Positions 12,501 through 26,833 of a stretch of 64,000 nt of DNA are shown here, piece by piece. The DNA comes from Solimonas flava DSM 18980 (GTDB taxonomy: Bacteria; Pseudomonadota; Gammaproteobacteria; Nevskiales; Nevskiaceae), in the NCBI RefSeq assembly GCF_000426685.1, contig NZ_AUFV01000002.1, positions 248,001 through 312,000 of the forward strand, in the 5' to 3' direction. Both the position numbers and the translations under genes were made by a program. Below the pieces are notes generated by a model, which saw nothing but the letters and a program-made list of their open reading frames with translations, was not told where the DNA came from and made no database searches. The number at the start of each line of letters is the position of its first letter. Position 1 is the first letter of the stretch.

Positions 12501-12630
12501 CCCCCGATCGGGGGATCGCGGCGCCGCAAGGGCGACGGGTGGCGCATGAACGAACAGCGGACTTCCTCTTTCGGGGGATGCGGCGCTGCCGGCGCGGACC
12601 ACACTGCGCGCTCGATCGGCCGGGGGATGC
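12501..12630. promoter_or_regulatory. Palindrome and three CGGGGGAT-type repeats in the AraC/kinase intergenic region
   Basis: A perfect 14-bp palindrome (CCCCCGATCGGGGG) lies at 12501-12514. The core CGGGGGAT followed by a C/G-rich triplet appears near 12509, 12572 and 12621, the last just before the kinase start. These could be binding sites for the adjacent response regulator or the AraC protein. The spacing is irregular (63 and 49 bases), so this is weak. Confidence 0.3.
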
Positions 12631-12631
12631 G

Positions 12632-13852
12632 ATGCAGGCAGGTAACGGGAGGTACGCGCGTTCGGCGTGGCAGCTGGGTTGCGCGGTGCTGCTGCTGGCC
12701 GTCCTGCCGCACGCCGGCGCCGCAGCGGACGACGGGCCGCGGCCGGCGTTCGTCGCCCGTGCGGCGCCGCACCTGCTCGGGCTCGATGCCGACGGCGTGC
12801 GGCATCCTGCGCGCGACGGCCTGGTCCTGCCGCGCAGCGTGCATCGCCTGCGCATCGACTACGCCGCCGACGGCGATCCGCAGACCTTCCGCTACCGGCT
12901 CGAAGGGCTGGAGCGTGACTGGCAGGACGCCGGGTCGCGAACGGAAGCCTTCTACACCGACCTGCCGCCCGGCGCGTATCGCTTTGTCGTCGCCGGCGCC
13001 CGCGACGGCGGCGCGGCACTGCGTTTTTCGGTCGCGCCGGCGTTCACCCAGACCTGGTGGTTCCGCGCGCTGTGCGGGCTGCTCGCGTTCGTGCTGCTGT
13101 GGCTGCTGTATCTGTTGCGCCTGCGGCAGATGACCCTGCGCCTGCGGGTGCGTCTCGAGGAGCGCTACGGCGAGCGCGAGCGTATCGCGCGCGAACTGCA
13201 CGACACGCTGCTGCAGGGCATCCAGGGCCTGCTGCTGCGTTTCCAGGCGGTCGCCGAACGCATCGCCGACGCGGACACGCGCCGCATGCTGGAGACGACG
13301 CTCGATCGCGCCGAGGCGGTGCTCGTCGAGGGCCGCGACCGTGTGCGCGAGCTGCGCGATCTGGCGCGGCCGATCGAACGGCTCGACGAGGCCTTCGTCG
13401 AAGTCGGCCGCGAGTTCAAGGACAAGCCCTGTCCGCAGCTGCGCGTGATGGCGCTGCTCAAGCCGCGGCGGCTCAATCCGCTGGTGCGCGACGAGCTCTA
13501 TCGCATCGGTCGCGAGGCGATCATCAACGCCATCCAGCACGCGCGCGCGCACCACATCGATGTCGAAATCGAATATGGTCGCGAAGAGTTCGCGCTGCGC
13601 GTGCGCGATGACGGCGTCGGCCTGCCGGCCGAGGTGCTCGCCGCCGGCGCGCGCGCCGGCCACTGGGGGCTGCCGGGCATGCGCGAACGGGCGGCGCGCC
13701 TCGGTGCGCGCTTCGAACTGTGGAGCCAGCCGGGCCTCGGCGTCGCGATCGACGTGCGTGTGCCGGCCGACGTGGTGTACTGCGACGGCATTGCCGCTTC
13801 GCGCGTGCGCAAGCTGCTGGGCAAGGCCGTCGCCGAGGATGTGATGCCATGA
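12632..13852 (+). CDS. Membrane sensor histidine kinase with a periplasmic Y_Y_Y domain
   Basis: The protein is 406 residues. A signal or anchor segment (1-30) precedes a periplasmic Y_Y_Y-type beta domain (about 60-135, with RYRLEGLERDW and LPPGAYRF). One membrane helix follows at about 143-163. The cytoplasmic part has a HisKA_3 helix with the phospho-acceptor His190 in RELHDTLLQG and a HATPase with N-box EAIINAIQHAR and G-box DDGVGL. Unlike larger relatives, it lacks the beta-propeller that usually precedes Y_Y_Y. The start at 12632 (MQAG) follows GGGGG; upstream Met codons in frame are less likely. It overlaps the regulator gene by four bases. Confidence 0.9.
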   Translation: MQAGNGRYARSAWQLGCAVLLLAVLPHAGAAADDGPRPAFVARAAPHLLGLDADGVRHPARDGLVLPRSVHRLRIDYAADGDPQTFRYRLEGLERDWQDAGSRTEAFYTDLPPGAYRFVVAGARDGGAALRFSVAPAFTQTWWFRALCGLLAFVLLWLLYLLRLRQMTLRLRVRLEERYGERERIARELHDTLLQGIQGLLLRFQAVAERIADADTRRMLETTLDRAEAVLVEGRDRVRELRDLARPIERLDEAFVEVGREFKDKPCPQLRVMALLKPRRLNPLVRDELYRIGREAIINAIQHARAHHIDVEIEYGREEFALRVRDDGVGLPAEVLAAGARAGHWGLPGMRERAARLGARFELWSQPGLGVAIDVRVPADVVYCDGIAASRVRKLLGKAVAEDVMP

Positions 13853-14481
13853 ACGAGCCACGGGCGGCGATTCGCGTGCTGATCGTCGACGACCATCCGC
13901 TGCTGCGCGAGGGCATCGCCGCGGTACTGGCGGGGCAGGCCGACATGGATCTGGTCGGCGAGGCGGTCGACGGCCAGGATGCCGTCGAGCAGTTCCGCCG
14001 TCACCAGCCGGACGTGACGCTGATGGACCTGCAGATGCCGCGGCTCGGCGGCACCGCGGCGATCACGCAGATCCGCAGCGAGTATCCGTCGGCGCGCATC
14101 GTCGTGCTGACCACCTACAAGGGCGACGCGCAGGCGATGCGCGCGCTGAAGGCCGGCGCGTCCGGCTATCTGTTGAAAAGCATGTTGCGCCGTGAGCTGG
14201 TCGAGACCATTCGCGACGTCCACGCCGGCCGGCGGCGCATGCCGCCGGAAATCGCCGCGGGCATCGCCGAGCACGCCGCCGACGATGCGCTCAGCGCGCG
14301 CGAGGTCGAGGTGCTGCGCTGCGTCGCGCTCGGCAACGCCAACCGCGAGGTCGCCGCGCAGCTCGGCATCGCCGAGGAAACGGTGAAGGCGCACATGAAG
14401 AGCGTGCTCGCCAAGCTGTCGGCCAAGGACCGCACGCATGCGGTGACGATCGCGCTGCGGCGCGGCTTCATCGAAATGTAG
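13849..14481 (+). CDS. NarL/LuxR-type response regulator
   Basis: The protein is 210 residues. The receiver domain (about 8-125) has VDDHPLL, the phospho-acceptor Asp60 in LMDLQMP, the VVLTTYKG switch Thr and YLLKS with the conserved Lys. A LuxR-type helix-turn-helix (about 150-205) begins LSAREVEVLRCVALG and includes ETVKAHMKSVLAKL. It is coupled to the upstream kinase by an ATGA overlap, so the two form a complete two-component system. Targets are unknown; neighbouring genes on either side are candidates. Confidence 0.93.
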   Translation: MNEPRAAIRVLIVDDHPLLREGIAAVLAGQADMDLVGEAVDGQDAVEQFRRHQPDVTLMDLQMPRLGGTAAITQIRSEYPSARIVVLTTYKGDAQAMRALKAGASGYLLKSMLRRELVETIRDVHAGRRRMPPEIAAGIAEHAADDALSAREVEVLRCVALGNANREVAAQLGIAEETVKAHMKSVLAKLSAKDRTHAVTIALRRGFIEM

Positions 14482-14629: not shown

Positions 14630-15265
14630 TCAGCCGCGGCGCGCGGCGCGCGGCGGCGCCAGCTGGGCGTCGAGCAGCGCGCGGGCGCCGGCGAGCGCGT
14701 TGCAGAGCGGGGCGGTCTCGCAATCGCTGAACGTCAGCCGGGTCGCGGCGCTGCCTTCGAGCAGCAGCATCAGCGCGTCGCCGAGCGCGTCGGCGTCACG
14801 AGCCCCGGCGGCGGCGGCGAGTTCGCGCAGACGGCGGCGCTTCTCCATCTTGTGTTCGTGGATGACGGCGTGGCCGGGATGCGCGTCGTCGCGCAGCTCG
14901 ACCGCGGCATTGCTGATCGCGCAGCCGCAGCGCTCGACGTCGCGCGCCTTGCGGGCGCTGGCGTCGAAGATCGCTTCGATCTGCGCACGCGGATTGCCGG
15001 CGTGCGGCGCGATGACCTCGTCCCACCAGGTCCAGTACTCGCCTTCCTGCGCGCGCAGGCATTGCGCGACGAGCTCGTCCTTCGACGAAAAGCTGCGGTA
15101 GAAGCTCATCTTGTTGGTGCCGGCGCCGGAGGTGATGTCGTCGACGCCGACGGCGCGGATGCCCTGGCGGTAGAACAGCTCGCGCGCCGTCTTGAAGATG
15201 CGGTCGCGCACGCGCGTGCCGCCTTCCGGCGTCTGGCGGTCCGTTGTCCGCTTGTCGTGGCTCAT
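14630..15265 (-). CDS. TetR-family repressor, copy 1 (divergent from the lpxR-like gene)
   Basis: This 211-residue protein has an N-terminal TetR helix-turn-helix (about residues 18-65): RVRDRIFKTARELFYRQGIR, then GAGTNKMSFYRSFSSKDELV. It is a clear paralog of the regulator at 16767-17426, with nearly identical DNA-binding segments and similar ligand-binding domains. A GGAGGT ribosome-binding site precedes the ATG. Both TetR genes are divergent from their neighbours across paired palindromes of the same sequence. It is therefore likely to repress itself and the lpxR-like gene and may cross-bind the second site. A shared CGC or CPL cysteine segment in the ligand domain (ERCGCAISNAAVELR here) is a candidate ligand or redox sensor. 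Confidence 0.9.
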   Translation of the reverse strand: MSHDKRTTDRQTPEGGTRVRDRIFKTARELFYRQGIRAVGVDDITSGAGTNKMSFYRSFSSKDELVAQCLRAQEGEYWTWWDEVIAPHAGNPRAQIEAIFDASARKARDVERCGCAISNAAVELRDDAHPGHAVIHEHKMEKRRRLRELAAAAGARDADALGDALMLLLEGSAATRLTFSDCETAPLCNALAGARALLDAQLAPPRAARRG

Positions 15266-15317
15266 GGCGGCGATACCTCCGGCAAATGCCTGTTCATGCC
15301 AGCCCGTTGACTTCGTT

Positions 15318-15333
15318 GTTACCGATCGGTAAC
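15318..15333. promoter_or_regulatory. TetR operator 1a
   Basis: This is a perfect 16-bp palindrome, GTTACCGATCGGTAAC, between the divergent tetR copy 1 and the lpxR-like gene. It shares the GTTAC...GTAAC arms with the operators upstream of tetR copy 2, which supports one operator family for both repressors. Confidence 0.75.
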
Positions 15334-15346
15334 TTTATATCACAAT

Positions 15347-15362
15347 GTTACTGACCGGTCAC
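15347..15362. promoter_or_regulatory. TetR operator 1b
   Basis: This imperfect palindrome, GTTACTGACCGGTCAC, begins 29 bases after operator 1a. It differs from the operators at 17469 and 17497 by one base. Two sites at nearly three helical turns suggest cooperative binding on one face of the DNA. Confidence 0.7.
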
Positions 15363-15482
15363 CCACTGTAAAGTTCCGCCGATCGGTCCGGGCGTCAAGA
15401 CGCGGAGGCGGCGGCTCGCCCGCGGCCTGGCGTCGCACCGGACCGCGGAACGGGTCTTCCGGAAAGTCGGGAGATCGAAGTC

Positions 15483-16661
15483 ATGGCGTGGCAGACGGGG
15501 CAGACGAAAAAGGAAGAAGCGCGGGCAGTATCGGCGCGCGCCGCGGCGCGGCGCCTGATCCGGATGGCGGGGATCGTCGCGGCGCTGGTGCTCGGCGGCG
15601 GGCCGGCCGCCGCGACGGCGGGCGGGGCGGCCGAGGTTCTGCGCGAGCCGCTGCCGGGCGTGGTCCTCGACGAAAGCGGCCGCGAGCGCGAAGACAGCGG
15701 CTGGACCTTCTACTTCGACAACGACACGCTGACGCCCACGCAGCGCGACGAGGACTACACGGGCGGCGTCGCCGTGACGCTCGCCGGCCGGCGGGCGCAG
15801 GACCTGGCGGTGTCGCTCGACGCGCCGCTCGGCTGGATCGACCGCCTGTTCGTGCCGACCGCCGGCGCGGCGTTCGAACTGCACAGCCTCCAGTTCGGCG
15901 CGCTGGCGTTCACGCCGGGCAGCATCACCTCGGCGCCGATCCGCGCCGGCGACCGCCCTTACGCGAGCCTCGCCTACGTCGCCAACGGGCGCAGCTACGT
16001 CAGCGGCGGCACGACGGTCTACCACACGAGCTTCTCGCTGGGCGTGCTCGGCTCCGGCTTGGTGCCGGCGTTCCAGCGCACGTTCCACCGCGCGATCGGC
16101 GCGCGCCGGCCGCGCGGCTGGAACCACCAGATCGCCGACGGCGGCGAGCCGACGTTCCGCTACACGTTGACGCGGCAGGATCTGCGCCTCGCCGGCCGCT
16201 CGGGGAGCCGCGCGCGCTACGAGATCAAGAGCGCCGTCGCCGGCAGCGTCGGCTATCTGAGCGAGGGCAGCGTGGCGCTGTCGTGGCGCTGGGGCCGCAT
16301 CAATACGCCGTGGTGGGCGGGGCCGCCGGATCGCGTCGAGTACATCGCCGAGCCGGCGCCGGCGACCGGCGGCAGCGTGCTGGATCCGGGTTCACGCGAG
16401 CTGTACCTGTGGGGCGGCGTCAAGGCGCACGCGCGTCTCTACAACGCATTCCTGCAGGGCCAGTTCCGCGACAGCGATCTCGACTACGGCCCCGCCGATC
16501 TGCGGCCGCTGATCGCCGAAGCCTGGATCGGCGTCACCGCGCAACTCGCCGGCGAATACCGCCTGTCGTGGGTGATGCGCTACCAGAGCTCGGAGTTGAA
16601 GACCGAACCCGGCGACCGCTCGCTGCTGTGGGGCGGGCTGGTGCTCTCGCACGATCTCTGA
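15483..16661 (+). CDS. LpxR-like outer-membrane lipid A deacylase (DUF2219)
   Basis: The protein is 392 residues. A long N terminus ends in a hydrophobic signal segment (about 25-45). A beta-barrel domain then starts at WTFYFDNDTLTPTQRDEDYTGG; Asn80 and Asp81 match the conserved Asn-Asp pair of LpxR. A QRTFHRAIG segment followed by RGWNHQ resembles the LpxR strand that carries the catalytic His. LpxR removes the 3'-acyloxyacyl chain of lipid A at the outer membrane and lowers its detection by the host. The ATG has GGGAGA nine bases upstream. It is divergent from tetR copy 1 behind paired operators, so envelope remodelling may respond to the TetR ligand. A shared fold without the activity cannot be excluded. 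Confidence 0.8.
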   Translation: MAWQTGQTKKEEARAVSARAAARRLIRMAGIVAALVLGGGPAAATAGGAAEVLREPLPGVVLDESGREREDSGWTFYFDNDTLTPTQRDEDYTGGVAVTLAGRRAQDLAVSLDAPLGWIDRLFVPTAGAAFELHSLQFGALAFTPGSITSAPIRAGDRPYASLAYVANGRSYVSGGTTVYHTSFSLGVLGSGLVPAFQRTFHRAIGARRPRGWNHQIADGGEPTFRYTLTRQDLRLAGRSGSRARYEIKSAVAGSVGYLSEGSVALSWRWGRINTPWWAGPPDRVEYIAEPAPATGGSVLDPGSRELYLWGGVKAHARLYNAFLQGQFRDSDLDYGPADLRPLIAEAWIGVTAQLAGEYRLSWVMRYQSSELKTEPGDRSLLWGGLVLSHDL

Positions 16662-16696
16662 AGGTGCGGGCGGCATCGCGATCGGCGGGCATGAAA

Positions 16697-16724
16697 AAAG
16701 CCGGCCGCGTGAGCGGCCGGCTTT
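16697..16724. terminator. Bidirectional intrinsic terminator
   Basis: This is a perfect 12-bp stem (AAAGCCGGCCGC, loop GTGA, GCGGCCGGCTTT) flanked by further As and Ts. It lies between the convergent lpxR-like gene and tetR copy 2, so it can serve both. Confidence 0.85.
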
Positions 16725-16766
16725 CGTCGTCTTGACGGGATTGGCGCGGGTCCGGCGCGAAGCGTC

Positions 16767-17426
16767 TCAGGCGGCGCCTTTGGCGGCGCGCTTCTTCGCC
16801 GGCGCCGGCAGGTAGGCATCGAGCAGCGTGCGCGCCGCGACCAGCGAATTGGCCAGCGGCCCGCTGTGCCCGGCGAAGGTCAGGCGGGTGACCGTGCTGC
16901 CTTCGAGCAGCAGCATCAGCGCGTCGCCGAGCGCATCGGATTCGCGTGCGCCGGCTTCGGCGGCGAGCTGGCGCAGGCGGCGGCGGACCTCGGCCTTGTA
17001 GTCGCGGATCACCTCATGGCCCGGGTGTTCCGCCTCGCGCAGCTCGACGGCGGCGTTGCTCAGCGGGCAGCCGCAGGCGTCCTCGCCGCAGGACTTGGCG
17101 ATCGTCGATTCGAAGATCGCTTCGATCTGGCGGCGCGGGTTGCCGGCATAGGGGGCGATCGACGCGTTCCAGCGCTCCCAGTACTCGGCGACCTGCGCCT
17201 TCAGGCACTCGGCGACCAGATCGTCCTTGGACGGGAAGCTGCGGTAGAAGCTCATCTTGTTGGTGCCGGCGCCGCAGGCGATGGCATCGACGCCGACGGC
17301 GCGGATGCCCTGGCGGTAGAACAGCTCGCGCGCGGTCTTGAAGATGCGGTCGCGGACGCGGCCTCCGCCGCCGCATTCCGGCGCCGCTGCAGGCACCGGC
17401 GACGACCGCGATTTGCCTTCACTCAT
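16767..17426 (-). CDS. TetR-family repressor, copy 2 (divergent from the RND operon)
   Basis: This 219-residue paralog of the regulator at 14630-15265 has the same RVRDRIFKTARELFYRQGIR and GAGTNKMSFYRSFPSKDDLV helix-turn-helix region and a similar ligand domain with ACGCPLSNAAVELR. It starts at an ATG with GAGGTAAACG upstream and ends in a short Lys/Ala-rich tail. It is divergent from the RND efflux operon across two copies of GTTACTGACCGGTAAC. It is predicted to repress that operon and itself. The near-identical recognition helices suggest it can also act at the copy-1 operators. Confidence 0.92.
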   Translation of the reverse strand: MSEGKSRSSPVPAAAPECGGGGRVRDRIFKTARELFYRQGIRAVGVDAIACGAGTNKMSFYRSFPSKDDLVAECLKAQVAEYWERWNASIAPYAGNPRRQIEAIFESTIAKSCGEDACGCPLSNAAVELREAEHPGHEVIRDYKAEVRRRLRQLAAEAGARESDALGDALMLLLEGSTVTRLTFAGHSGPLANSLVAARTLLDAYLPAPAKKRAAKGAA

Positions 17427-17468
17427 AAACGTTTACCTCGACCACGACGAAACCTCTTGACAGCGAAT

Positions 17469-17484
17469 GTTACTGACCGGTAAC
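17469..17484. promoter_or_regulatory. TetR operator 2a
   Basis: GTTACTGACCGGTAAC is a near-perfect palindrome between tetR copy 2 and the RND operon, identical to operator 2b. Confidence 0.78.
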
Positions 17485-17496
17485 TTACGCTCCAAC

Positions 17497-17512
17497 GTTA
17501 CTGACCGGTAAC
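17497..17512. promoter_or_regulatory. TetR operator 2b
   Basis: This is a second exact copy of GTTACTGACCGGTAAC starting 28 bases after 2a. The spacing repeats that of the pair at 15318/15347, so the two-site arrangement is conserved at both loci. Confidence 0.78.
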
Positions 17513-17621
17513 GCACGCAGCTTCCCCCGATTCGACACGGACGTCAACCGGACGGACGGGGTGCTGGCATCTCATCCCCCTCGGCGCGCCGTCAGGCGGG
17601 CCGACCGTTCGGAGAAGTTTC

Positions 17622-18833
17622 ATGGCCTCGCAGACCCGTCCGTTCATCAGCAATTCTACGCTGAGCCTGCTGCCGCTGGCGCTGTTCGTGCTGGCCGCCG
17701 CCGGCCTGTCCGGCTGCAGCGCGCAGGACGCCAGCGCCGCCGCCGCGCCGCCGGCGCCGGAAGTCACCGTCCGTGCCGTCGTGCAGCAGCAGATCGTCGA
17801 CTGGGACCGTTACACCGGCCGCTTCGAAGCGGTCGAGCATGTCGAGCTGCGTCCGCGCGTGACCGGCTACATCGATCGCGTCGCCTACACCGAAGGCGCG
17901 CTGGTCAAGAAGGGCGAGCTGCTGTTCCAGATCGATCCGCGGCCGTATCGGGCGCGGCTCGATCAGGCCGAGGCCGAGCTGGCCCGCGCCCGCGCGCAGG
18001 ACGAGCTCGCCGCCAGCGAATCGGCGCGCGCCGAAAGCCTGCTGCAGGCGCACGCGATCTCCAAGGAGGAGTACGACGCCCGCGCCAGCAACCGTGGCCA
18101 GGCGAGCGCCGGTCTGCGCGCGGCGCGCGCCGCAGTCGAGGCGGCGCGCTTGGACCTGGAGTTCACGCGCGTCACCGCGCCGATCGCCGGACGCGTGTCG
18201 CGCGCCGCCGTCACCGCCGGCAACTTCGTCGCGGCCGGCCAGACGGTGCTGACCTCGGTGGTCTCGGTCGATCCGATCTACGTCTATTTCGATGGCGATG
18301 AGCAGAGCTACCTCAAGTACGCCGATCTGGCCAGCCGCGGCGAGCGCCCGAGCGAGCGTGACGCGGCGCTGCCGGTCTACGTCGGCCTCGCCAACGAGGA
18401 CGGCTACCCGCACGCCGGCCGCATCGACTTCATCGACAACGCGCTCGATCCGCAGACCGGCACGATCCGCGCCCGCGCCGTGCTGGCGAACCCGGACGGC
18501 CGCCTCACGCCGGGTCTGTTCGCGCGCCTGCAGCTGGCCGGCAGCGGCCGCTATGCGGCGACGCTGCTCGACGAGCGTGCGATCGGCACCGACCAGAGCA
18601 AGAAGTTCGTCTACGTCGTCGACGAGCACGGCGCCGTGCAGTACCGCGCGGTGACGCTCGGCGACACGCATGACGGCCTGCGCGTGGTGCGCGACGGCCT
18701 GCAGCCGGGCGAACGCGTGATCGTCGCCGGCCAGCAGCGCGTGCGGCCGGGCATGAGCGTCGCGGCCAAGGTCGAGGACGCGCCGCAGCCGACGGCCGAC
18801 GCGCGCGACGCGATGGCCTTCGCCATCAACTGA
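17622..18833 (+). CDS. RND efflux periplasmic adaptor (MexE/AcrA-type lipoprotein)
   Basis: The protein is 403 residues. A lipoprotein signal peptide has its lipobox at GLSGC (Cys32). The order is that of membrane-fusion proteins: lipoyl half-motifs (VELRPRVTGYIDRVAYTEGA), an alpha-helical hairpin (about 105-170), the second lipoyl half (FTRVTAPIAGRVSRAAVTAG) and beta-barrel/membrane-proximal domains (GTIRARAVLANPDGRLTPG). It bridges the inner-membrane pump and the outer-membrane channel. It is the first gene of the TetR-controlled operon, has GGAGAAG upstream, and is followed by the pump after 38 bases. Confidence 0.95.
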   Translation: MASQTRPFISNSTLSLLPLALFVLAAAGLSGCSAQDASAAAAPPAPEVTVRAVVQQQIVDWDRYTGRFEAVEHVELRPRVTGYIDRVAYTEGALVKKGELLFQIDPRPYRARLDQAEAELARARAQDELAASESARAESLLQAHAISKEEYDARASNRGQASAGLRAARAAVEAARLDLEFTRVTAPIAGRVSRAAVTAGNFVAAGQTVLTSVVSVDPIYVYFDGDEQSYLKYADLASRGERPSERDAALPVYVGLANEDGYPHAGRIDFIDNALDPQTGTIRARAVLANPDGRLTPGLFARLQLAGSGRYAATLLDERAIGTDQSKKFVYVVDEHGAVQYRAVTLGDTHDGLRVVRDGLQPGERVIVAGQQRVRPGMSVAAKVEDAPQPTADARDAMAFAIN

Positions 18834-18871
18834 AGGCGCCTGCGGGCACGCACGCGCTTCGAAAGGAAGCC

Positions 18872-21800
18872 ATGAAACTGACCCATTTCTTCATCGAGCG
18901 GCCGATCTTCGCCGGCGTGCTCTCGTTCCTGGTGCTCGTCGCCGGCCTGATCGCGGTGTTCCGCCTGCCGGTTGCCGAATATCCGGAAGTGGTGCCGCCG
19001 ACCGTTGTCGTCACCGCCCAGTACCCGGGCGCGACCGCGCAGACGCTGGCCGACACCATCGCCACGCCGCTGGAGCAGGAGATCGTCGGCGTCGAGGACA
19101 TGATCTACATGAACTCGCAGGCGCAGCAGGACGGCACGCTGCAGCTGACGGTGACGTTCCGTCTCGGCACCGACATCGACCGCGCCCAGGTGCAGGTGCA
19201 GAACCGCGTCGCGCAGGCGCTGCCGCGTCTGCCGGAAGAGGTGCGCGCCGCCGGCGTGACGACGCGCAAGAGCTCGCCGAACCTGACGATGGTCGTGCAT
19301 CTGTACTCGCCGGACGGTCGCTACGACGGCCTCTATCTGCGCAATCTCGCGGTGATCCAGGTGCGCGACCGCCTCGCGCGCCTGCCGGGCGCCGGCGACG
19401 TGCAGATGTTCGGTTCCGGCGATTACGCGATGCGCCTGTGGCTGGACCCGCAGAAGCTGGCCTCGCGCAGCCTGACGGTCGACGACGTGGTGCGCGCCGT
19501 GCGAGAGCAGAACGTGCAGGTCGCTGCCGGCAGCGTCGGCGCGCCGCCGCTCGAACACAATCCGGCGTTCCAGCTGGCGATCGACGCGCGCGGCCGTCTC
19601 AACGACGAGCGCCAGTTCGGCGATATCGTCATCAAGACCGGCACCGACGGCGAGATCACGCAGCTCGCCGACGTCGCCCGCATCGAGCTCGGTGCCGGCC
19701 AGTACGCGCTGCGTTCGCTGCTCGACAACCGCGCCGCGGTCGCGCTGCCGGTGTTCCTGCAGCCGGGCGCCAACGCGCTCGAACTGGCCGACAACGTGCG
19801 CAAGACGATGGCCGAGCTCAAGCAGACGTTTCCGCAGGGCGTCGACTACTCGATCATCTACGACCCGACGGTGTTCGTGCGCGAGTCGATTCGCGCCGTG
19901 ATCGAGACCCTGCTCGAAGCGCTGCTGCTGGTCGTCATCGTCGTCATCCTGTTCCTGCAGACCTGGCGCGCGGCGCTGATCCCGATCGTCGCCGTGCCGG
20001 TGGCGATCATCGGCAGCTTCGCGGCGATGCAGGTCTTCGGCTTCTCGATCAACACGCTGACGCTGTTCGGTCTGGTCCTGGCGGTCGGCATCGTCGTCGA
20101 CGACGCCATCGTCGTCGTCGAGAACATCGAGCGCGGCATCGCCGACGGCCTGGCGCCGCGCGCCGCCGCGCACCGCTCGATGGACGAGGTCGCCGGACCG
20201 ATCATCGCGATCTCGCTGGTGCTGTGCGCGGTGTTCGTGCCGCCGGCCTTCGTCGGCGGCTTCAACGGCCAGTTCTACCGGCAGTTCGCGCTGGTCATCG
20301 CTTTCGCCGCGATCATTTCGGCGTTCAATTCACTGACGCTGTCGCCGGCGCTGGCGGCGCTGCTGCTGCGCGGCCACGACGCCAAGCCGGACCGCCTGCA
20401 GCGCCTGATCGACGGAGCCTTCGGCTGGCTGTTCCGGCCGTTCAACCGCGTCTTCGCGCGCGGCGCGTCCGGCTACCAGCGCGGCGTGCGCAAGGTGCTG
20501 CGCGTCGGCGCGCTCAGCTTCGTCGTCTACGGCGGCCTCGTGCTGCTGACCGGCGTCGGCTTCATGAAGGCGCCGAACGGCTTCATTCCGGCGCAGGACA
20601 AGGGCTATCTGATCAGCATCATCCAGCTGCCGGCCGGCGCGTCGATCGAGCGCACCGAGGCGATCGTCAAGAAGGTCGGCGAGATCGGCCTGCAGCAGGC
20701 CGGCGTCGAGCACGCCGTGCAGTTTCCGGGCCTGTCGGTCAACGGCTTCACGCGCGCGTCGGATTCGGCGATCGTGTTCTTCCCGCTCAAGTCCTTCGAC
20801 GCGCGCCGCGGCCTGCGTGGTCCGCAGATCGCCGCCGAGCTGAACCAGAAGCTGGCGGCGATCGACGACGCGATGATCTTCACGGTGATGCCGCCGCCGA
20901 TCCTCGGCATCGGCACCGCCGGCGGCTTCAAGGCGCAGCTCGAAGATCACACCGACGCCGGCCCGGCGCGCCTGTACCAGATGACGCAGGACTTCGTCGG
21001 CGCGCTGCGCCAGCAGCCGGAGCTGGCCGGCGTGTTCTCGACCTACGACGTCAACGCGCCGCAGCTCTACGCCGACATCGACCGCGTCAAGGCCAAGCGC
21101 CTGGGCATCGACCTCGACGCCGTGTTCCGCACGCTGCAGGTCTATCTGGGCTCGTACTACATCAACGACTTCAATCGTTTCGGGCGCACCTTCCGCGTCG
21201 TCGCGCAGGCCGACGAGGCCTATCGCGCACGGCCGCAGGACGTGCTGCTGCTGAAGACGCGCAACGCCGACGGCGAGATGGTGCCGCTGGCCTCGGTGCT
21301 GCGGCTCGAGGAGCACTTCGGGCCGAACACCGCGGCGCGCTACAACGGCTTCCCGAGCGCCGACATCAACGGCGCGACGGCGCCGGGCTTCAGTTCCGGC
21401 CAGGCGATGGCGGCGGTCGAGCGCGTGGCGAAGGAAACGCTGCCCAACGGCGTGCATATCGAATGGACGGATCTGGCTTTCCAGCAGATCGGCGCGGCGC
21501 AGGCGCTGGCAATCGTGCTGCCGCTGGCAGTGCTGTTCGTGTTCCTCGTGCTCGCCGCGCAGTACGAGAGCCTGATGCTGCCGCTGGCGGTGATCCTGAT
21601 CGTGCCGATGACGCTGCTGTCGGCGCTCGCCGGCATCTTCCTGATGAAGAGCGAGGTCAACATCTTCACGCAGATCGGCCTGTTCGTGCTGGTCGGCCTG
21701 GCGGCCAAGAACGCGATCCTGATCGTCGAGTTCGCCCGCGAGCTGGAAGCGCGCGGCATGGCGACGCTCGACGCCGCGCTCGAAGCCTGCCGCCTGCGCC

Positions 21801-22051
21801 TGCGGCCGATCCTGATGACCTCGTTCGCCTTCATCTTCGGCGTGCTGCCGCTGGTGACGGCGAGCGGCGCCGGCGCCGAGATGCGCCAGGCGATGGGCAT
21901 CGCCGTGTTCTTCGGCATGATCGGCGTGACCTTCTTCGGTCTGTTCTTCACGCCGCTGTTCTATGTCGCGCTGCGCCGGCTCGCCCTGCGCCGCGCGACG
22001 GCTTCCAACCTTCCCGCCACGCCGGCCACCGCGCCCGCGGGCCAGCACTAG
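18872..22051 (+). CDS. RND efflux pump, HAE1 family (MexF/AcrB-like)
   Basis: This 1059-residue inner-membrane proton antiporter has 12 membrane helices. It begins with the typical FIERPIFAGVLSFLVLVAGL. Helix 4 carries the proton-relay Asp pair in GIVVDDAIVVVENIER, and the second half has the GLAAKNAILIVEFA motif. Two large periplasmic loops form the drug-binding porter domain. The closest recognisable type is MexF, whose substrates include chloramphenicol, quinolones and electrophilic compounds. Together with the upstream adaptor and the outer-membrane factor at 24636 it makes a complete tripartite pump. Confidence 0.96.
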   Translation: MKLTHFFIERPIFAGVLSFLVLVAGLIAVFRLPVAEYPEVVPPTVVVTAQYPGATAQTLADTIATPLEQEIVGVEDMIYMNSQAQQDGTLQLTVTFRLGTDIDRAQVQVQNRVAQALPRLPEEVRAAGVTTRKSSPNLTMVVHLYSPDGRYDGLYLRNLAVIQVRDRLARLPGAGDVQMFGSGDYAMRLWLDPQKLASRSLTVDDVVRAVREQNVQVAAGSVGAPPLEHNPAFQLAIDARGRLNDERQFGDIVIKTGTDGEITQLADVARIELGAGQYALRSLLDNRAAVALPVFLQPGANALELADNVRKTMAELKQTFPQGVDYSIIYDPTVFVRESIRAVIETLLEALLLVVIVVILFLQTWRAALIPIVAVPVAIIGSFAAMQVFGFSINTLTLFGLVLAVGIVVDDAIVVVENIERGIADGLAPRAAAHRSMDEVAGPIIAISLVLCAVFVPPAFVGGFNGQFYRQFALVIAFAAIISAFNSLTLSPALAALLLRGHDAKPDRLQRLIDGAFGWLFRPFNRVFARGASGYQRGVRKVLRVGALSFVVYGGLVLLTGVGFMKAPNGFIPAQDKGYLISIIQLPAGASIERTEAIVKKVGEIGLQQAGVEHAVQFPGLSVNGFTRASDSAIVFFPLKSFDARRGLRGPQIAAELNQKLAAIDDAMIFTVMPPPILGIGTAGGFKAQLEDHTDAGPARLYQMTQDFVGALRQQPELAGVFSTYDVNAPQLYADIDRVKAKRLGIDLDAVFRTLQVYLGSYYINDFNRFGRTFRVVAQADEAYRARPQDVLLLKTRNADGEMVPLASVLRLEEHFGPNTAARYNGFPSADINGATAPGFSSGQAMAAVERVAKETLPNGVHIEWTDLAFQQIGAAQALAIVLPLAVLFVFLVLAAQYESLMLPLAVILIVPMTLLSALAGIFLMKSEVNIFTQIGLFVLVGLAAKNAILIVEFARELEARGMATLDAALEACRLRLRPILMTSFAFIFGVLPLVTASGAGAEMRQAMGIAVFFGMIGVTFFGLFFTPLFYVALRRLALRRATASNLPATPATAPAGQH

Positions 22052-22067
22052 AGACAGGAGCAACACC

Positions 22068-22796
22068 ATGGCAAAGATCGCACTCGTCACCGGCGGCAAC
22101 CGCGGCATCGGTCTGGAGACCGCGCGCCAGCTCGCCGATCAGGATGTGCTAGTGATCGTCGCCGCGCGCGACTACGGCAAGGCCGTCGAGGCGGCGCGCG
22201 CGCTGCGCAAAGGCGCGCACCAGGCCGAGGCCGTGCAGCTCGACGTCACCGACGCGGCGAGCATCGCCGCCGCCGCCGAGGAGGTCGCGCGTCGTCACGG
22301 CCGCCTCGACATCCTCATCAACAACGCCGGCATCATCAGCAGCAGTCCGGACGGCCGGCCGTCGTCGCAGCCGGTCGCCGAATGGCGGCGCATCTTCGAG
22401 ACCAATCTGTTCGGCCTGGTCGAGACCACGCAGGCGTTCCTGCCGCTGCTGAAGAAGTCGGAGGCAGGCCGCATCGTGCACCTGTCGAGCATTCTCGGCT
22501 CGAACACGCTGCACGAGACGCCGGGCTCGCCGATCTACGAGTTCAAGGCGGTGCCGGCCTACAGCGCGTCGAAGAGCGCGGTCAACAGCTACACCGTGCA
22601 TCTGGCCTACGAGCTGCGCGACACGCCGATCAAGGTCAACGCCGCCCATCCGGGTTACGTGAAGACCGAGATGAACGCCGGCGCCGGCGAGCTCGACGTG
22701 CCGGACGGCGCGCGCACCAGCGTCGCGCTGGCGCTGCTCGGCCCGGACGGGCCGAGCGGCAAGCTCATCCACCTCGGTCAGGTCTTGCCCTGGTAG
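22068..22796 (+). CDS. Short-chain dehydrogenase/reductase
   Basis: This is a 242-residue complete classical SDR. It has the NAD(P)-binding TGGNRGIG (residues 8-15), the structural NNAG (85-88), a catalytic Ser near 141 in VHLSS, and Tyr165/Lys169 in AYSASKSA. NADPH preference is suggested by the AARD segment after the second strand. The family reduces carbonyls, so a role in reducing reactive ketones or aldehydes fits the operon (old yellow enzyme, GST, efflux). The ATG at 22068 with AGGAG upstream lies 16 bases after the pump gene; the open frame extends into it artefactually. Confidence 0.93.
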   Translation: MAKIALVTGGNRGIGLETARQLADQDVLVIVAARDYGKAVEAARALRKGAHQAEAVQLDVTDAASIAAAAEEVARRHGRLDILINNAGIISSSPDGRPSSQPVAEWRRIFETNLFGLVETTQAFLPLLKKSEAGRIVHLSSILGSNTLHETPGSPIYEFKAVPAYSASKSAVNSYTVHLAYELRDTPIKVNAAHPGYVKTEMNAGAGELDVPDGARTSVALALLGPDGPSGKLIHLGQVLPW

Positions 22797-22850
22797 CCGT
22801 CGCTGCCGGGCGGTACGCAAGGCGGCCTCGCGGCCGCAAAGGAGTCCACG

Positions 22851-23135
22851 ATGGCATTTCCCCAGGAACGGGTCGCATTGATCACCGAGGTGCAGCGCGC
22901 CGAGCGCTACGCGCAGGCACGCGCCCTCGCGCAGCAGGGCCTGCACGTCGTCGTCGCGGCGACGGAGTGGGCGAGGGCGGTCGATGCCGCGCTGCGTCTG
23001 CAGCTCGAAGGCCTGTCGGCCGAGGCGCTGCATCTGGAACGCCGCGATGCCGCCACGCTGGCGGCCGCCAAGCAGCAGATCATCCGTCGCCGCGGCCAGC
23101 TCGACATCGTCGTCGACGAGCCGGCGCTCGCCTGA
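22851..23135 (+). CDS. Truncated, degenerate SDR relative lacking cofactor and catalytic motifs
   Basis: This 94-residue protein aligns end to end with the N-terminal half of the SDR just upstream. VALVTGGNRGIG becomes VALITEVQRAER, and RLDILINNAG becomes QLDIVVDEPA. The strand-helix pattern is kept, but the glycine-rich nucleotide motif and the NNAG motif are gone, and the Ser-Tyr-Lys half is absent. It has a good ribosome-binding site (AAAGGAG), no internal stop and normal codon use, so it does not look like random decay. It could be a partner or decoy subunit of the SDR, or a decaying duplicate. I know of no defined function. Confidence 0.75.
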   Translation: MAFPQERVALITEVQRAERYAQARALAQQGLHVVVAATEWARAVDAALRLQLEGLSAEALHLERRDAATLAAAKQQIIRRRGQLDIVVDEPALA

Positions 23136-23170
23136 GCGCCGTCCCTCCATCGTCCAAGGAGATATCTGTC

Positions 23171-23512
23171 ATGAATGAACGCATTTCCCATGTCACCGAC
23201 GCCAGCTTCGAGCAGGACGTCCGCCAGGCGAGCGGCCGGCAGCCGGTACTCGTCGATTTCTGGGCGGAGTGGTGCGGCCCCTGCCGCATGGTCGCGCCGG
23301 TGCTCGACCAGCTCGCCGTCGAGAACGGCGAACGCCTGAAGATCGTCAAGCTCAATGTCGACGAAAACCCGCAGGTGGCCGCCGCACTCGGCATTCGCGG
23401 CATACCGACGCTGATGCTGTTCAAGGACGGCGAGCTGGCGGCGACCCAGGTCGGCGCGGTGCCGAAGGCACAGCTCGCGGCCTTCGTCGCGCCGCATCTC
23501 GCCGCCGTCTGA
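23171..23512 (+). CDS. trxA: Thioredoxin
   Basis: This 113-residue thioredoxin has the active site WCGPC at residues 34-38 and the conserved cis-proline in GIPTLMLF. It is cytoplasmic, with no signal peptide. Thioredoxins reduce protein disulfides and support peroxidase and reductase enzymes. Its place between the SDRs and the old yellow enzyme, inside an efflux operon, suggests a dedicated copy for thiol repair under electrophile stress. The chromosome probably has another housekeeping trxA, so the symbol marks the family only. GGAGA lies shortly before the ATG. Confidence 0.92.
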   Translation: MNERISHVTDASFEQDVRQASGRQPVLVDFWAEWCGPCRMVAPVLDQLAVENGERLKIVKLNVDENPQVAAALGIRGIPTLMLFKDGELAATQVGAVPKAQLAAFVAPHLAAV

Positions 23513-23550
23513 AGACGCCGCCGTCCAACAAGAAAAACAGGAGCATCCTC

Positions 23551-24639
23551 ATGAGCGCTTCACTCTTTTCCCCGCTGCAGCTCGGCGACCTCCACCTGCC
23601 GAACCGCATCATCATGGCGCCGATGACGCGCACGCGCGCCGAACCGGGTCACGTGCCCGGCGCGCTGATGGCCACGCATTACGCGCAGCGCGCCAGCGCC
23701 GGCCTGCTGATCGCCGAGGCGACCTCGGTGGCGCCGCGGACCAGCGCTTTCGGCGCCGATCCGGGCGTCTACGATGAGGCCCAGGTCGCCGGCTGGCGGC
23801 AGGTGGTCGACGCCGTGCACGCCGCCGGCGGCCGCATCGCGCTGCAGGTCTTCCATCCGGGCCGCGCCGCGCTGCCGGGCCTCAACGATGGCGCGCAGCC
23901 GGTGTCGTCGACCGACCGCGCGATCCGCCTGCCGCAGGGCGACGACCGCGTCGTCGCCGCGCCGCGGCGCCTGACGCTCGCCGAGATCGGCGAGGTCGTC
24001 GCGCAATTCCGCCGCGGCATCGAGAACGCGCACCGCGCCGGCTTCGACGCCGTCGAGATCCACGGTGCGCACGGCTACCTGCTCGACCAGTTCCTGCGCG
24101 ACAGCGTCAACGACCGCAGCGACGCGTACGGCGGGTCGCTCGAAAACCGCGCGCGCCTGCTGCTCGCGGTGCTCGACGAGGCGATCGCCGTGTTCGGCTC
24201 CGGTCGCGTCGGCCTGCGTATCTCGCCGCTGGTCGCTTACAACGACATCAGCGACTCGGATCCGCGCGCGCTGGTGCAGTACGTGGCGCAGGAGATCGAG
24301 CGCCGCGCCGTCGCTTTTCTCGACCTGCGCCACGAGCAGCACGATGCGCCGGAGGAAGAGGCGCTCGCCGACATCGCGCGTCTGCACTACCGCGGCGTGC
24401 TGCTGCGCAACGGCGGCTACGACCGCGACAGCGGCGCCGCCGATCTCGCCAGCGGCCGTGCCGACGGCATCGTCTACGGCAAGCCGTTCCTCGCCAACCC
24501 CGACCTCGTCGAGCGCTTCCGCAAGCAGGCGCCGCTCGCGCAGCCGGATTTCTCGCTGCTCTACACGCCGGGCCCGCGCGGCTACATCGACTACCCCGCG
24601 CTGGAGCCGGCCGTGATCGACGAACCCGCACTCGCATGA
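23551..24639 (+). CDS. Old yellow enzyme family alkene reductase (NemA-like)
   Basis: This 362-residue FMN-dependent TIM barrel has the OYE signatures NRIIMAPMTRTRA at the N terminus, the substrate-binding His pair in EIHGAHGYLLDQFLRD, NDRSDAYGGSLENR and the C-terminal GRADGIVYGKPFLANPDLV. It reduces activated C=C bonds (enones, quinones, nitroesters) with NAD(P)H. In other bacteria the nemA regulon responds to electrophiles, which matches the GST, thioredoxin and SDR in this operon. AGGAG precedes the ATG, and the stop overlaps the next gene's start (ATGA). Confidence 0.92.
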   Translation: MSASLFSPLQLGDLHLPNRIIMAPMTRTRAEPGHVPGALMATHYAQRASAGLLIAEATSVAPRTSAFGADPGVYDEAQVAGWRQVVDAVHAAGGRIALQVFHPGRAALPGLNDGAQPVSSTDRAIRLPQGDDRVVAAPRRLTLAEIGEVVAQFRRGIENAHRAGFDAVEIHGAHGYLLDQFLRDSVNDRSDAYGGSLENRARLLLAVLDEAIAVFGSGRVGLRISPLVAYNDISDSDPRALVQYVAQEIERRAVAFLDLRHEQHDAPEEEALADIARLHYRGVLLRNGGYDRDSGAADLASGRADGIVYGKPFLANPDLVERFRKQAPLAQPDFSLLYTPGPRGYIDYPALEPAVIDEPALA

Positions 24640-26105
24640 ACACCTCACGTTTTTCACGGCGCCGCGCGGCGCTCAAGCCCCTGCTGATCGCGCTCGGCGC
24701 GGCGGCGCTGACGGCCTGCGCGGTCGGCCCGGATTACCGGGCGCCGCCGCTGCCGGCCGCGCAGGCGGTCGCCGACATCGGCCTCGACCCCGCGTTCTAC
24801 AGCGCCGAAGCGCCGCCGGCGCAGTTCTGGGCCAGCTTCGGCGACGCCGGCCTGGAGGCGCTCGAAGCGCGCGCGCTGACCGCCAATCACGATCTGCGCA
24901 TCGCGCTCGCCAATCTCAACCAGGCGCGCGCGCTGCGCCGCGAGGCCTTCCTCGACTATCTGCCGACGGTGACGGCCGGCGCCGGCTACACGGTCGCGCA
25001 GCAGAGCGCCGACCAGGCGCCGGGCTACAGCCGCGACGACCGCCACAGCGAGCTTTACGACGCCGGCTTCGACGCGTCCTGGGAGCTCGATCTGTTCGGC
25101 CGCGTGCGGCGTCTCAACGAGGCCAGCCGCGCCAACGAGGAGGCGCTGGCCGCCGACCTGCGCGCCGCGCAGCTGTCGGTCGCCGCCGAGGTCGCGCGCA
25201 CTTATTTCGAGCTGCGCGGCGCGCAGGCGCGGCTGGCGGTCGCCGAACGCAACGCCGACAACCAGCTCGGCACGCTGAACTACACCGAGGCGCGTCTGGC
25301 CTACGGCCGCGGCACCGAGTTCGACCGCGAACGCGCGCGCGCGCAGCTGGCGGCGACGCGCGCGCGCGTGCCGGATCTGCGCACCGCGGTCGCCAACGCC
25401 GAGCACCGTCTCGCGATGCTCGCCGGGCTGGTGCCGAGCGCGCTGCGCGACGAGCTGGACGCGCCGCAGGCGCTGCCGCCGTTGCCGCGTCTGGTGCGGA
25501 TCGGCGAGCCGGAAGCGCTGCTGCGCCGGCGTCCGGACGTCGCCAGCGCCGAGCGTCAGCTCGCCGCCGCGACCGCCGGCATCGGCGTCGCGGTCGCCGA
25601 CTACTTCCCGCGCGTGAGTTTCACTGGCGAGGCGGGTTTCTCGGTCGCGCATCTCGGCTCGGTCGGCGACGGCGGCAGCGATCGCTACGCGTTCGGACCG
25701 AGCATCAGCTGGGCGGCCTTCGATCTGGGCCGCGTGCAGGCGCGCGTCGCGCAGCGTCGCGCCGGCGCCGACGCCGCGCTCGCGCGCTACGAGCAGAGCG
25801 TGCTGCGCGCGCTGGAGGAGACGGCCAACACGCTGGTCGGCTACGGCCAGAACCGCCGCAAGCTCGATCTGCTCGACGAGGGGGCGCAGGCCAGCGCGCG
25901 CGCGGTGCAGCTGGCGCGGGTACGCTTCGAAGCCGGCGCGGCGGATTTCATCGACGTGCTCGACGCCGAGCGCAGCCTGCTCGACGCCGAGGATCAGCGG
26001 GCGCAGGCGCGCACGCAGACCGCGACCTCGCTGGTCGCGCTCTACAAGTCGCTCGGCGGCGGCTGGCAGGGCGCGGCGCCGCAGACGCTGTCGCGCAAGG
26101 ACTGA
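24636..26105 (+). CDS. Outer-membrane efflux channel lipoprotein (NodT/OprM type)
   Basis: The protein is 489 residues. The signal peptide ends in a lipobox at ALTAC (Cys28), followed by the family-typical AVGPDYRAPP. Two outer-membrane-efflux repeats cover about 60-250 and 280-470, with LLRRRPDVASAERQLAAA and a long helical stretch. It completes the tripartite pump started at 17622. It is separated from the pump gene by four redox-enzyme genes, an unusual order, since the channel gene usually follows the pump directly. The start overlaps the old yellow enzyme stop by four bases. Confidence 0.95.
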   Translation: MNTSRFSRRRAALKPLLIALGAAALTACAVGPDYRAPPLPAAQAVADIGLDPAFYSAEAPPAQFWASFGDAGLEALEARALTANHDLRIALANLNQARALRREAFLDYLPTVTAGAGYTVAQQSADQAPGYSRDDRHSELYDAGFDASWELDLFGRVRRLNEASRANEEALAADLRAAQLSVAAEVARTYFELRGAQARLAVAERNADNQLGTLNYTEARLAYGRGTEFDRERARAQLAATRARVPDLRTAVANAEHRLAMLAGLVPSALRDELDAPQALPPLPRLVRIGEPEALLRRRPDVASAERQLAAATAGIGVAVADYFPRVSFTGEAGFSVAHLGSVGDGGSDRYAFGPSISWAAFDLGRVQARVAQRRAGADAALARYEQSVLRALEETANTLVGYGQNRRKLDLLDEGAQASARAVQLARVRFEAGAADFIDVLDAERSLLDAEDQRAQARTQTATSLVALYKSLGGGWQGAAPQTLSRKD

Positions 26106-26125
26106 ACGGGGCACGGAGCACGACG

Positions 26126-26833
26126 ATGATCGACCTCTATTACTGGACCACGCCGAACGGCCACAAGATCACGATCTTCCTGGAGGAAGCCGGCCTGGAC
26201 TACCGCATCGTGCCGGTGCACATCGGCCGCGGCGAACAGTTCCGGCCGGACTTCCTGCGCATCGCGCCGAACAACCGCATTCCGGCGATCGTCGATCACG
26301 CGCCGGCCGACGGCGGCGCAGCGCTGACGCTGTTCGAGTCCGGCGCGATCCTGCAGTACCTCGCCGAGAAGAGCGGCCGTTTCCTGCCGGCCGATCGGCG
26401 CGGTCGCTACGAGACGATGCAATGGCTGTTCTGGCAGATGGCCGGCCTCGGCCCGATGCTCGGCCAGAACCACCATTTCCGGAACTACGCGCCCGAGAAG
26501 ATCCCGTACGCGATCGAGCGCTACGTGAAGGAAACCAACCGCCTGTACGGCGTGCTCGACCGGCGGCTCGCCGACCGCGAGTTCATCGCCGGCCCGTACA
26601 CGATCGCCGACATGGCGGCGTATCCGTGGATCGTCCCGCACGAGGCGCAGGGCCAGACGCTGGCCGAGTTCCCGAACCTGCGGCGCTGGTTCGAGGCGAT
26701 CGCCGCGCGCCCGGCGGTGCAGCGCGCCTATGCCCGCGCGCGCGAGATCAACACCGCGGCGACGGTCGACGAGGAGGCGCGGCGCGTGCTGTTCGGCCAG
26801 GATGCCGGCTCGGTGCGCCAGGCGGCGGGCTGA
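26126..26833 (+). CDS. Glutathione S-transferase (YfcG/Nu-class-like)
   Basis: The protein is 235 residues. The N-terminal thioredoxin-fold domain (1-80) begins IDLYYWTTPNGHKITIFLEEAGL and contains NNRIPAI with the cis-proline and ESGAILQYLAEKSG for glutathione binding. The C-terminal helical domain contains the family-typical QWLFWQMAGLGPMLGQNHHF. The TPNGHK segment and the QNHHF motif match YfcG-like GSTs, which act as disulfide-bond oxidoreductases as well as conjugating enzymes. It is the last gene of the TetR-controlled operon, 20 bases after the channel gene. Confidence 0.92.
   Translation: MIDLYYWTTPNGHKITIFLEEAGLDYRIVPVHIGRGEQFRPDFLRIAPNNRIPAIVDHAPADGGAALTLFESGAILQYLAEKSGRFLPADRRGRYETMQWLFWQMAGLGPMLGQNHHFRNYAPEKIPYAIERYVKETNRLYGVLDRRLADREFIAGPYTIADMAAYPWIVPHEAQGQTLAEFPNLRRWFEAIAARPAVQRAYARAREINTAATVDEEARRVLFGQDAGSVRQAAG

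Follow-up and report, generated by a model that had tools for sequence, protein, structure and literature searches.

A putative TetR-controlled chemical-defence regulon of Solimonas flava that appears to have recruited an lpxR-like gene

Introduction

Several described regulons resemble a locus in the genome of Solimonas flava DSM 18980, in which genes for two TetR-family repressors, tetR-A and tetR-B, lie beside an lpxR-like gene and a run of genes for a resistance-nodulation-division (RND) efflux pump and redox enzymes. The locus was analysed within a stretch of 64,000 nucleotides, hereafter the window (contig NZ_AUFV01000002.1, positions 248,001 to 312,000). In the NemR-NemA-GloA system of Escherichia coli, a TetR repressor likewise controls a reductase of the old yellow enzyme (OYE) type, and NemR responds to electrophiles and hypochlorous acid (HOCl) (PMC7464077). 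This system differs in that no pump gene is present in the NemR-nemA-gloA stretch seen, and NemR is distant in sequence from the repressors considered here (4yze, E 0.0004). MexEF-OprN of Pseudomonas aeruginosa, which is induced by electrophiles and disulfide stress and is linked to the oxidoreductase MexS (PMC10333786, PMC10848761), has an adaptor and a permease of the same type as our locus, but its regulator MexT is a LysR activator, it includes no lpxR gene, and the Solimonas adaptor scores 478.1 bits with the MexE model against an equivalog cut-off of 714. The smeU1VWU2X operon of Stenotrophomonas maltophilia likewise combines an RND pump with two genes for short-chain dehydrogenases/reductases (SDR) and a divergent regulator (PMC12189255), whereas its regulators, SmeRv and AzoR, are of the LysR type and its five genes include none for an OYE, a thioredoxin, a glutathione S-transferase (GST) or LpxR. 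AltR of Pantoea ananatis and DitR of S. maltophilia are likewise TetR repressors tied to thiol-stress genes and equipped with sensor cysteines; AltR requires Cys100 for its thiosulfinate response (PMC13178969), and a DitR box is positioned between the -35 and -10 elements (PMC9342713). They differ from the present case in their operators, CAATCTAC-N6-GTAGATTG and CATACnnnnnGTATG, and in their targets, DitR controlling a major facilitator superfamily pump. Finally, lpxR of Salmonella answers to HilD and SlyA (PMC5122947), so that a link of lpxR to TetR and efflux would be unlike the arrangement there.

Searches of the open-licence PubMed Central (PMC) literature returned no occurrence of the operator described below or of its variants, no description of an operon uniting TetR, RND, SDR, thioredoxin and OYE and, judged by titles and the starts of abstracts among the matches listed, no TetR-controlled lpxR regulon. 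Nor did the matches listed include a counterpart of the pump operon with its divergent TetR gene, in Solimonas or elsewhere. Our verdict is that the novelty relative to known TetR/electrophile-efflux regulons lies in the recruitment of lpxR in one lineage. Outer-membrane composition and efflux are generally treated as separate subjects; the regulon proposed here would fire both.

Paired operators at two divergent promoters

We propose, with a probability of roughly 0.6, that the locus is a TetR-controlled chemical-defence regulon into which the lpxR-like gene was recruited. The two tetR genes, on the minus strand, face the lpxR-like gene and an eight-gene run on the plus strand (17622-26833), and open reading frames (ORFs) together with Pfam and NCBIfam assignments bear out this arrangement, which had been put forward in a sequence-only reading of the window. 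The same reading had described four palindromes with GTTAC/GTAAC arms in two pairs, and these were found where it had placed them, 29 bp apart at lpxR (15318/15347) and 28 bp apart at the pump operon (17469/17497); the two lpxR operators each deviate from the pattern by one base. A search of 85 genomes belonging to the order found 34 exact sites, spread over 22 genomes. Of these sites, 30 adjoin a tetR gene of the TetR-A/B family that faces genes of the adaptor-RND, SDR-OYE or half-SDR-thioredoxin-OYE type; the remaining four are the lpxR site of G025, a genome of another genus, and one site each in G019, G030 and G045. The genome search suggested at the outset as a check on the operator pairs shows that they recur in other genomes of the order beside tetR genes of this family. 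In G061, which belongs to a different genus, this operator again accompanies a set of pump, SDR, OYE, channel and GST genes.

Two other views of the operators were tried and rejected. Chance palindromes are ruled out by the counts: with up to three mismatches allowed, the window contains seven matches to the pattern (four places, strands counted apart) where 0.11 are expected, a number reached in 0 of 100 shuffles, a separate scan of the 64 kb for GTTAC/GTAAC arms returned just these four palindromes compared to a mean of 0.07 and a maximum of 1 in 30 Markov simulations, and the reversed control yielded no exact site in the order. A wide spread of the operator in the class is ruled out as well, given that the class yields six sites, spread over 5 of 369 genomes and including the window's own two, against three for the control; among the four sites outside the source genome, only G384 shows a pair next to a TetR gene from this family. 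Within the 4.46 Mb source genome, the four locus operators are the only sites with zero or one mismatch among the matches listed, and a larger regulon is unsupported there, with up to two mismatches giving the four locus places and three single weaker sites against four for the reversed control.

In both G019 and G030 (L133 5702-5717, L134 6052-6067), a single exact GTTACTGACCGGTAAC is located about 38 bases upstream of a different, distant RND permease gene, and no TetR of this family matched in these two loci. In G010 (L059 7540-7990), an operator pair and a TetR face half-SDR, thioredoxin and OYE genes, and the 19 kb retrieved gave no match to pump genes.

Repressor helices and operator specificity

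TetR-A and TetR-B, both of which exceed the Pfam cut-off for the TetR_N domain, had been credited with almost the same recognition helix; in the alignment it is in fact identical, TNKMSFYR, starting at residue 50 of TetR-A and residue 55 of TetR-B. That the two proteins bind the palindromes is predicted from the association between helix and operator among 30 aligned TetRs: TNK[MV]SFYR is present in 21, of which 20 are accompanied by an operator pair, and (A/T)TKM(S/T)LYR in nine, none of which has one (Fisher value 7e-7, with relatives treated as independent). Presence of a pair was coded by hand, with G030 and G019 (a single site with two mismatches) and G037 (a single site with one mismatch) set to no, and G021 (sites with two mismatches) set to yes. 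The lone TNKMSFYR protein coded no, that of G057, comes without its N-terminus and upstream region and was excluded from the tree (29 rows); in this genome (L046), the TetR gene directly adjoins the RND gene with no adaptor matched between them, through either an assembly fault or a rearrangement.

Inspection by eye revealed sites with GATAC, GAGAC or TATAC arms, for example GATACCGCTCGGTATC, in eight of the nine (A/T)TKM(S/T)LYR loci and none in G013; G037 falls in between, its one GTTAC-type site carrying one mismatch. A sister TetR clade with the helix (A/T)TKMSLYR stands opposite similar pump or SDR-OYE genes, with altered-arm palindromes at L072 7800-7845, L063 8245-8295, L070 9309-9324 and L039 1404-1419, and possibly represents a natural shift of operator specificity. 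The two helix/operator pairs (TNKMSFYR with GTTAC arms and (A/T)TKMSLYR with altered arms) amount to a small data set, supplied by nature, on the DNA specificity of TetR proteins.

Conservation of the lpxR link

Close orthologues of the lpxR-like gene (E <1e-100) are present in 8 of the 58 genomes of the family, and six of these eight carry an operator pair (up to two mismatches per site). In 5 of 11 genomes of the genus (G000, G007, G003, G008, G001), lpxR adjoins tetR-B and the pump operon; among these five, G008 has no tetR-A and G003 no full-length SDR. Two genomes extend the link beyond adjacency, because both keep the pair at lpxR under other circumstances. In G008, tetR-A has no match and the gene across the intergenic region resembles trpG (by eye), yet the pair is retained. 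In G025, a lone lpxR gene with a pair is located on a 22 kb contig, of which the 12 kb retrieved contain no match to tetR, and the single TetR-B homologue with E <1e-20 is encoded on a different contig with its own pair and pump operon (G025 had six TetR matches, two of them too weak for inclusion among the matches listed). Together with the promoter geometry common to lpxR and the pump operon (see below), these cases support the earlier claim of one regulon, and the shared helix, the shared operator and the trans case lend indirect support to cross-regulation by both TetRs. The apparent co-induction of lpxR and the pump suggests that reshaping of the outer membrane would belong to the response to chemical stress. 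Given a readable operator and a naturally occurring genome with lpxR seemingly under control in trans, it is directly testable whether lipid A deacylation aids survival of reactive chemicals.

Several observations weigh against this picture. The pair is absent at two of the eight close orthologues (G006, G036), and no operator was found at 16 lpxR loci in 15 genomes elsewhere in the class (31-43% identity, some loci being cut by contig ends). Six further distant lpxR loci (L016-L021) also gave no operator.

Promoter geometry and a possible mechanism

The pair promoters were compared in 29 hand-picked loci showing the operator pair, oriented towards the target genes. A TTGAC motif lies just upstream of the first palindrome in 27 of them (25 at 6-7 bases, two at 2 bases) and is missing from two; in two further pairs, outside the 29, the distances are 2 and 6 bases. 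Kinship is disregarded in the binomial value calculated for this motif. The distance is 6-7 bases in all six lpxR promoters, a geometry common to lpxR and pump promoters. We read this as a weak promoter whose sequence is constrained by the operator, with the -10 partly built from the right arm; this is a reading rather than a result because the proposed -10, TAACTT, fits three of six consensus bases and went uncalled by the promoter scan, which counts against it. The sole promoter-like match of that scan, where 0.4 are expected by chance, is on the minus strand at 15372-15345, overlapping operator 2 of lpxR; it might act as a promoter for tetR-A.

In the regulon that we favour, TetR-A and TetR-B would read one and the same operator, with one repressor dimer on each palindrome and two palindromes at each of the two divergent promoters. 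The first palindrome would occupy the space between the -35 and the proposed -10, such that bound repressor would exclude RNA polymerase, and the second, nearer to the target gene by 28-29 bp, would cover the start region. Both promoters would be released by a thiol-reactive or electrophilic compound acting on the C-terminal domain near a conserved Gly-Cys motif, whereupon the pump would export the compound, OYE and SDR would reduce it, thioredoxin and the YfcG-like protein would restore thiols, and the LpxR-like protein would trim lipid A. Only tentatively do we put forward the fullest form of this scheme, in which one operator code co-fires the RND pump, the reductases, thiol repair and a lipid A deacylase, the coupling is older than the tetR duplication, by which each promoter acquired a repressor to itself, and the half-SDR beside the thioredoxin is a further part of the machinery.

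Nature of the inducer

With OYE, thioredoxin and YfcG-like genes placed under one promoter with a MexE/OqxB-like pump, a thiol-reactive or electrophilic compound is the best guess for the inducer; taking also the SDR and the cysteine aligned with NemR Cys106 into account, we put this at about even odds. The cysteine in question is the second of a CGC motif (residues 113-115 in TetR-A and 118-120 in TetR-B), so that the Gly-Cys pair ends in Cys115 and Cys120, respectively; Gly-Cys is present in 29 of the 30 aligned TetRs. In NemR, Cys106 is tied to HOCl sensing, and Cys21 and Cys116 are the electrophile cysteines, acting through a disulfide (PMC7464077). Three points tell against reactive sensing: the positions of NemR Cys21 and Cys116 are not cysteines in these TetRs, Gly-Cys also occupies this position in three of five TetR structures among the matches listed and hence need not be a sensor, and TetR-A of G001 (L056 14378-15025), on a long branch, is devoid of it.

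A possible alternative, on which we would not bet, is that a non-reactive hydrophobic compound (a solvent, hydrocarbon, steroid or antimicrobial) binds in the TetR pocket, the reductases serving downstream metabolism and thiol chemistry having no part in sensing. TetR repressors of RND pumps often bind ligands of this kind, and the distribution of Gly-Cys, neither special to thiol sensors nor kept in TetR-A of G001, agrees with such a ligand, whereas the OYE, thioredoxin and YfcG-like genes of the operon and the near-universal cysteine favour a reactive inducer.

The LpxR-like protein

The product of the lpxR-like gene, whose closest relative found is a protein of S. variicoloris DSM 15731 (92% identity), belongs to the same Pfam family as Salmonella LpxR, with 125.3 bits (cut-off 26) over most of its length. 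The match to the Salmonella structure 3fid is weak (0.0077 using close relatives), and a 21-sequence profile compared with the Protein Data Bank (PDB) has 3fid as its sole match (1.2e-10). His202 aligns with the catalytic His122 of Salmonella LpxR and, like Asp81, is invariant in 21/21 LpxR-like sequences; Salmonella Glu128, the role of which is disputed (PMC6260217), is replaced by Arg208, and the 3fid alignments start after residue 48, beyond the calcium ligands Asn9, Asp10 and Thr34. Thus, of the outer-membrane remodelling proposed earlier, family membership and the catalytic His stand, Glu128 does not, and lipid A 3'-O-deacylase activity is a plausible prediction. That the protein is instead another outer-membrane esterase or a non-enzymatic barrel appears the less probable option, albeit one to be taken seriously: the weak 3fid match, the Arg at the Glu128 equivalent and the unplaced calcium ligands speak for it, while the Pfam score and the invariant His202 and Asp81 speak against it.

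Origin of the two repressors

In the tree, TetR-A (4 rows, support 98/94) and TetR-B with the G010 protein (7 rows, 91/91) group at 99/99, with TetR_G025 outside. We propose that TetR-A and TetR-B arose by duplication within or at the base of the genus; to be set against this is that the tree is midpoint-rooted and that TetR_G025 and TetRA_G001 are long branches. On the simplest reading, one repressor would originally have governed lpxR and the pump in trans, the duplication following later; horizontal transfer is a possible alternative origin. Plasmid records contain 231 TetR-B homologues, all below 60% identity and 154 of them from Rhizobium, with one inspected record near an SDR gene; the 1211 plasmid homologues of the OYE, also all below 60% identity, are uninformative.

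The spacing within the pairs differs slightly between lpxR (29, 29, 29, 26, 29 and 30) and the pump operon in the same genera (28, 28, 27, 27, 27, 27 and 27), which might permit separate control and in this respect detracts from a single regulon. That the locus consists of two self-contained modules, TetR-A serving lpxR only and TetR-B the pump only, with separate ligands and the alike operators a remnant of the tetR duplication, is nevertheless unlikely: each tetR does adjoin a single target, the two proteins diverge in their C-terminal domains (68% identity across the region matched) and the spacing points the same way, but the recognition helix is the same, the operators are near-identical and the lpxR pair is kept in G008 and G025 without tetR-A.

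Gene content of the locus

The features of the locus are listed in Table 1. Intergenic gaps within the eight-gene run range from -4 to 54 bases. Adaptor, permease and channel all score above their subfamily cut-offs, as an RND tripartite pump of the HAE type; with more specific models, the permease reaches 1355 bits against 2200 for OqxB, the OYE 321.6 against 403 for the NCBIfam NemA model (the general OYE family cut-off being exceeded) and the GST-fold protein 282.6 against 332 for the YfcG equivalog NF010579, its best-matching model. The family assignments given in the sequence-only reading are upheld for the adaptor, pump, SDR, thioredoxin, OYE and channel, with two amendments: its truncated SDR is a half protein of 94 residues below the Pfam cut-off, and its GST is nearest to YfcG. 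The GST fold is matched by Pfam, and the conjugation assigned to it is weakly founded because the protein resembles a disulfide oxidoreductase.

Table 1 Features of the tetR-lpxR-pump locus in window coordinates
Feature	Position	Strand	Evidence or remark
tetR-A	14630..15265	-	211 aa; Pfam TetR_N 5.3e-14, 52.2 bits (cut-off 24)
Proposed -35 TTGACT of lpxR	15307..15312	+	TTGAC 6 bases upstream of operator; putative function
Operator 1 of lpxR, GTTACCGATCGGTAAC	15318..15333		Palindrome with GTTAC/GTAAC arms
Proposed -10 TAACTT of lpxR	15330..15335	+	Overlaps right arm of operator 1; spacer 17; predicted from position
Operator 2 of lpxR, GTTACTGACCGGTCAC	15347..15362		Palindrome with GTTAC/GTAAC arms
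lpxR-like gene	15483..16661	+	392 aa; Pfam LpxR PF09982 3.4e-36; 3fid alignments
tetR-B	16767..17426	-	219 aa; Pfam TetR_N 2.8e-14, 53.1 bits (cut-off 24)
Proposed -35 TTGACA of pump operon	17457..17462	+	TTGAC 7 bases upstream of operator; putative function
Operator 1 of pump operon, GTTACTGACCGGTAAC	17469..17484		Exact pattern match
Proposed -10 TAACTT of pump operon	17481..17486	+	Overlaps operator 1; spacer 18; predicted from position
Operator 2 of pump operon, GTTACTGACCGGTAAC	17497..17512		Exact pattern match
RND periplasmic adaptor, MexE/OqxA-like	17622..18833	+	TIGR01730 276.3 bits (cut-off 94.9); Pfam HlyD-type
RND permease, OqxB/MexF-like	18872..22051	+	NCBIfam NF000282 (RND_permease_1) 1392 bits (cut-off 1250)
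SDR-family oxidoreductase	22068..22796	+	242 aa; Pfam adh_short 2e-51
Half-SDR	22851..23135	+	94 aa; TGxxxGxG not intact; Pfam adh_short 21.9 bits (cut-off 26.6)
Thioredoxin with CGPC	23171..23512	+	TIGR01068 123.2 bits (cut-off 96.8); Pfam thioredoxin
OYE, NemA-like	23551..24639	+	Pfam Oxidored_FMN 2.7e-70, 237.8 bits (cut-off 27)
Outer-membrane efflux channel, NodT/OprM type	24636..26105	+	TIGR01845 341.8 bits (cut-off 210); Pfam OEP
GST-fold protein, nearest to YfcG (glutathione-dependent disulfide oxidoreductase)	26126..26833	+	NF010579 282.6 bits; Pfam GST_N, GST_C

A half-SDR of 94-107 residues is encoded upstream of the thioredoxin in six genomes (window 22851-23135; L053, L054, L055, L056, L059). 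In all six it terminates shortly past a common LD.V stretch, and in none is TGxxxGxG intact, TG being retained in G008 and G001. The half-SDR persists in G003 and G010, where the full-length SDR is unmatched, and its pairwise ratios of nonsynonymous to synonymous substitutions (dN/dS) are 0.05-0.56 (15 pairs), all below 1 and mostly higher than those of the thioredoxin (0.05-0.36). The half-SDR does not look like simple debris and is under purifying selection by this measure.

Beside tetR-A, at 12539-14481 of the window, two ORFs resemble, by eye, a sensor kinase and a response regulator.

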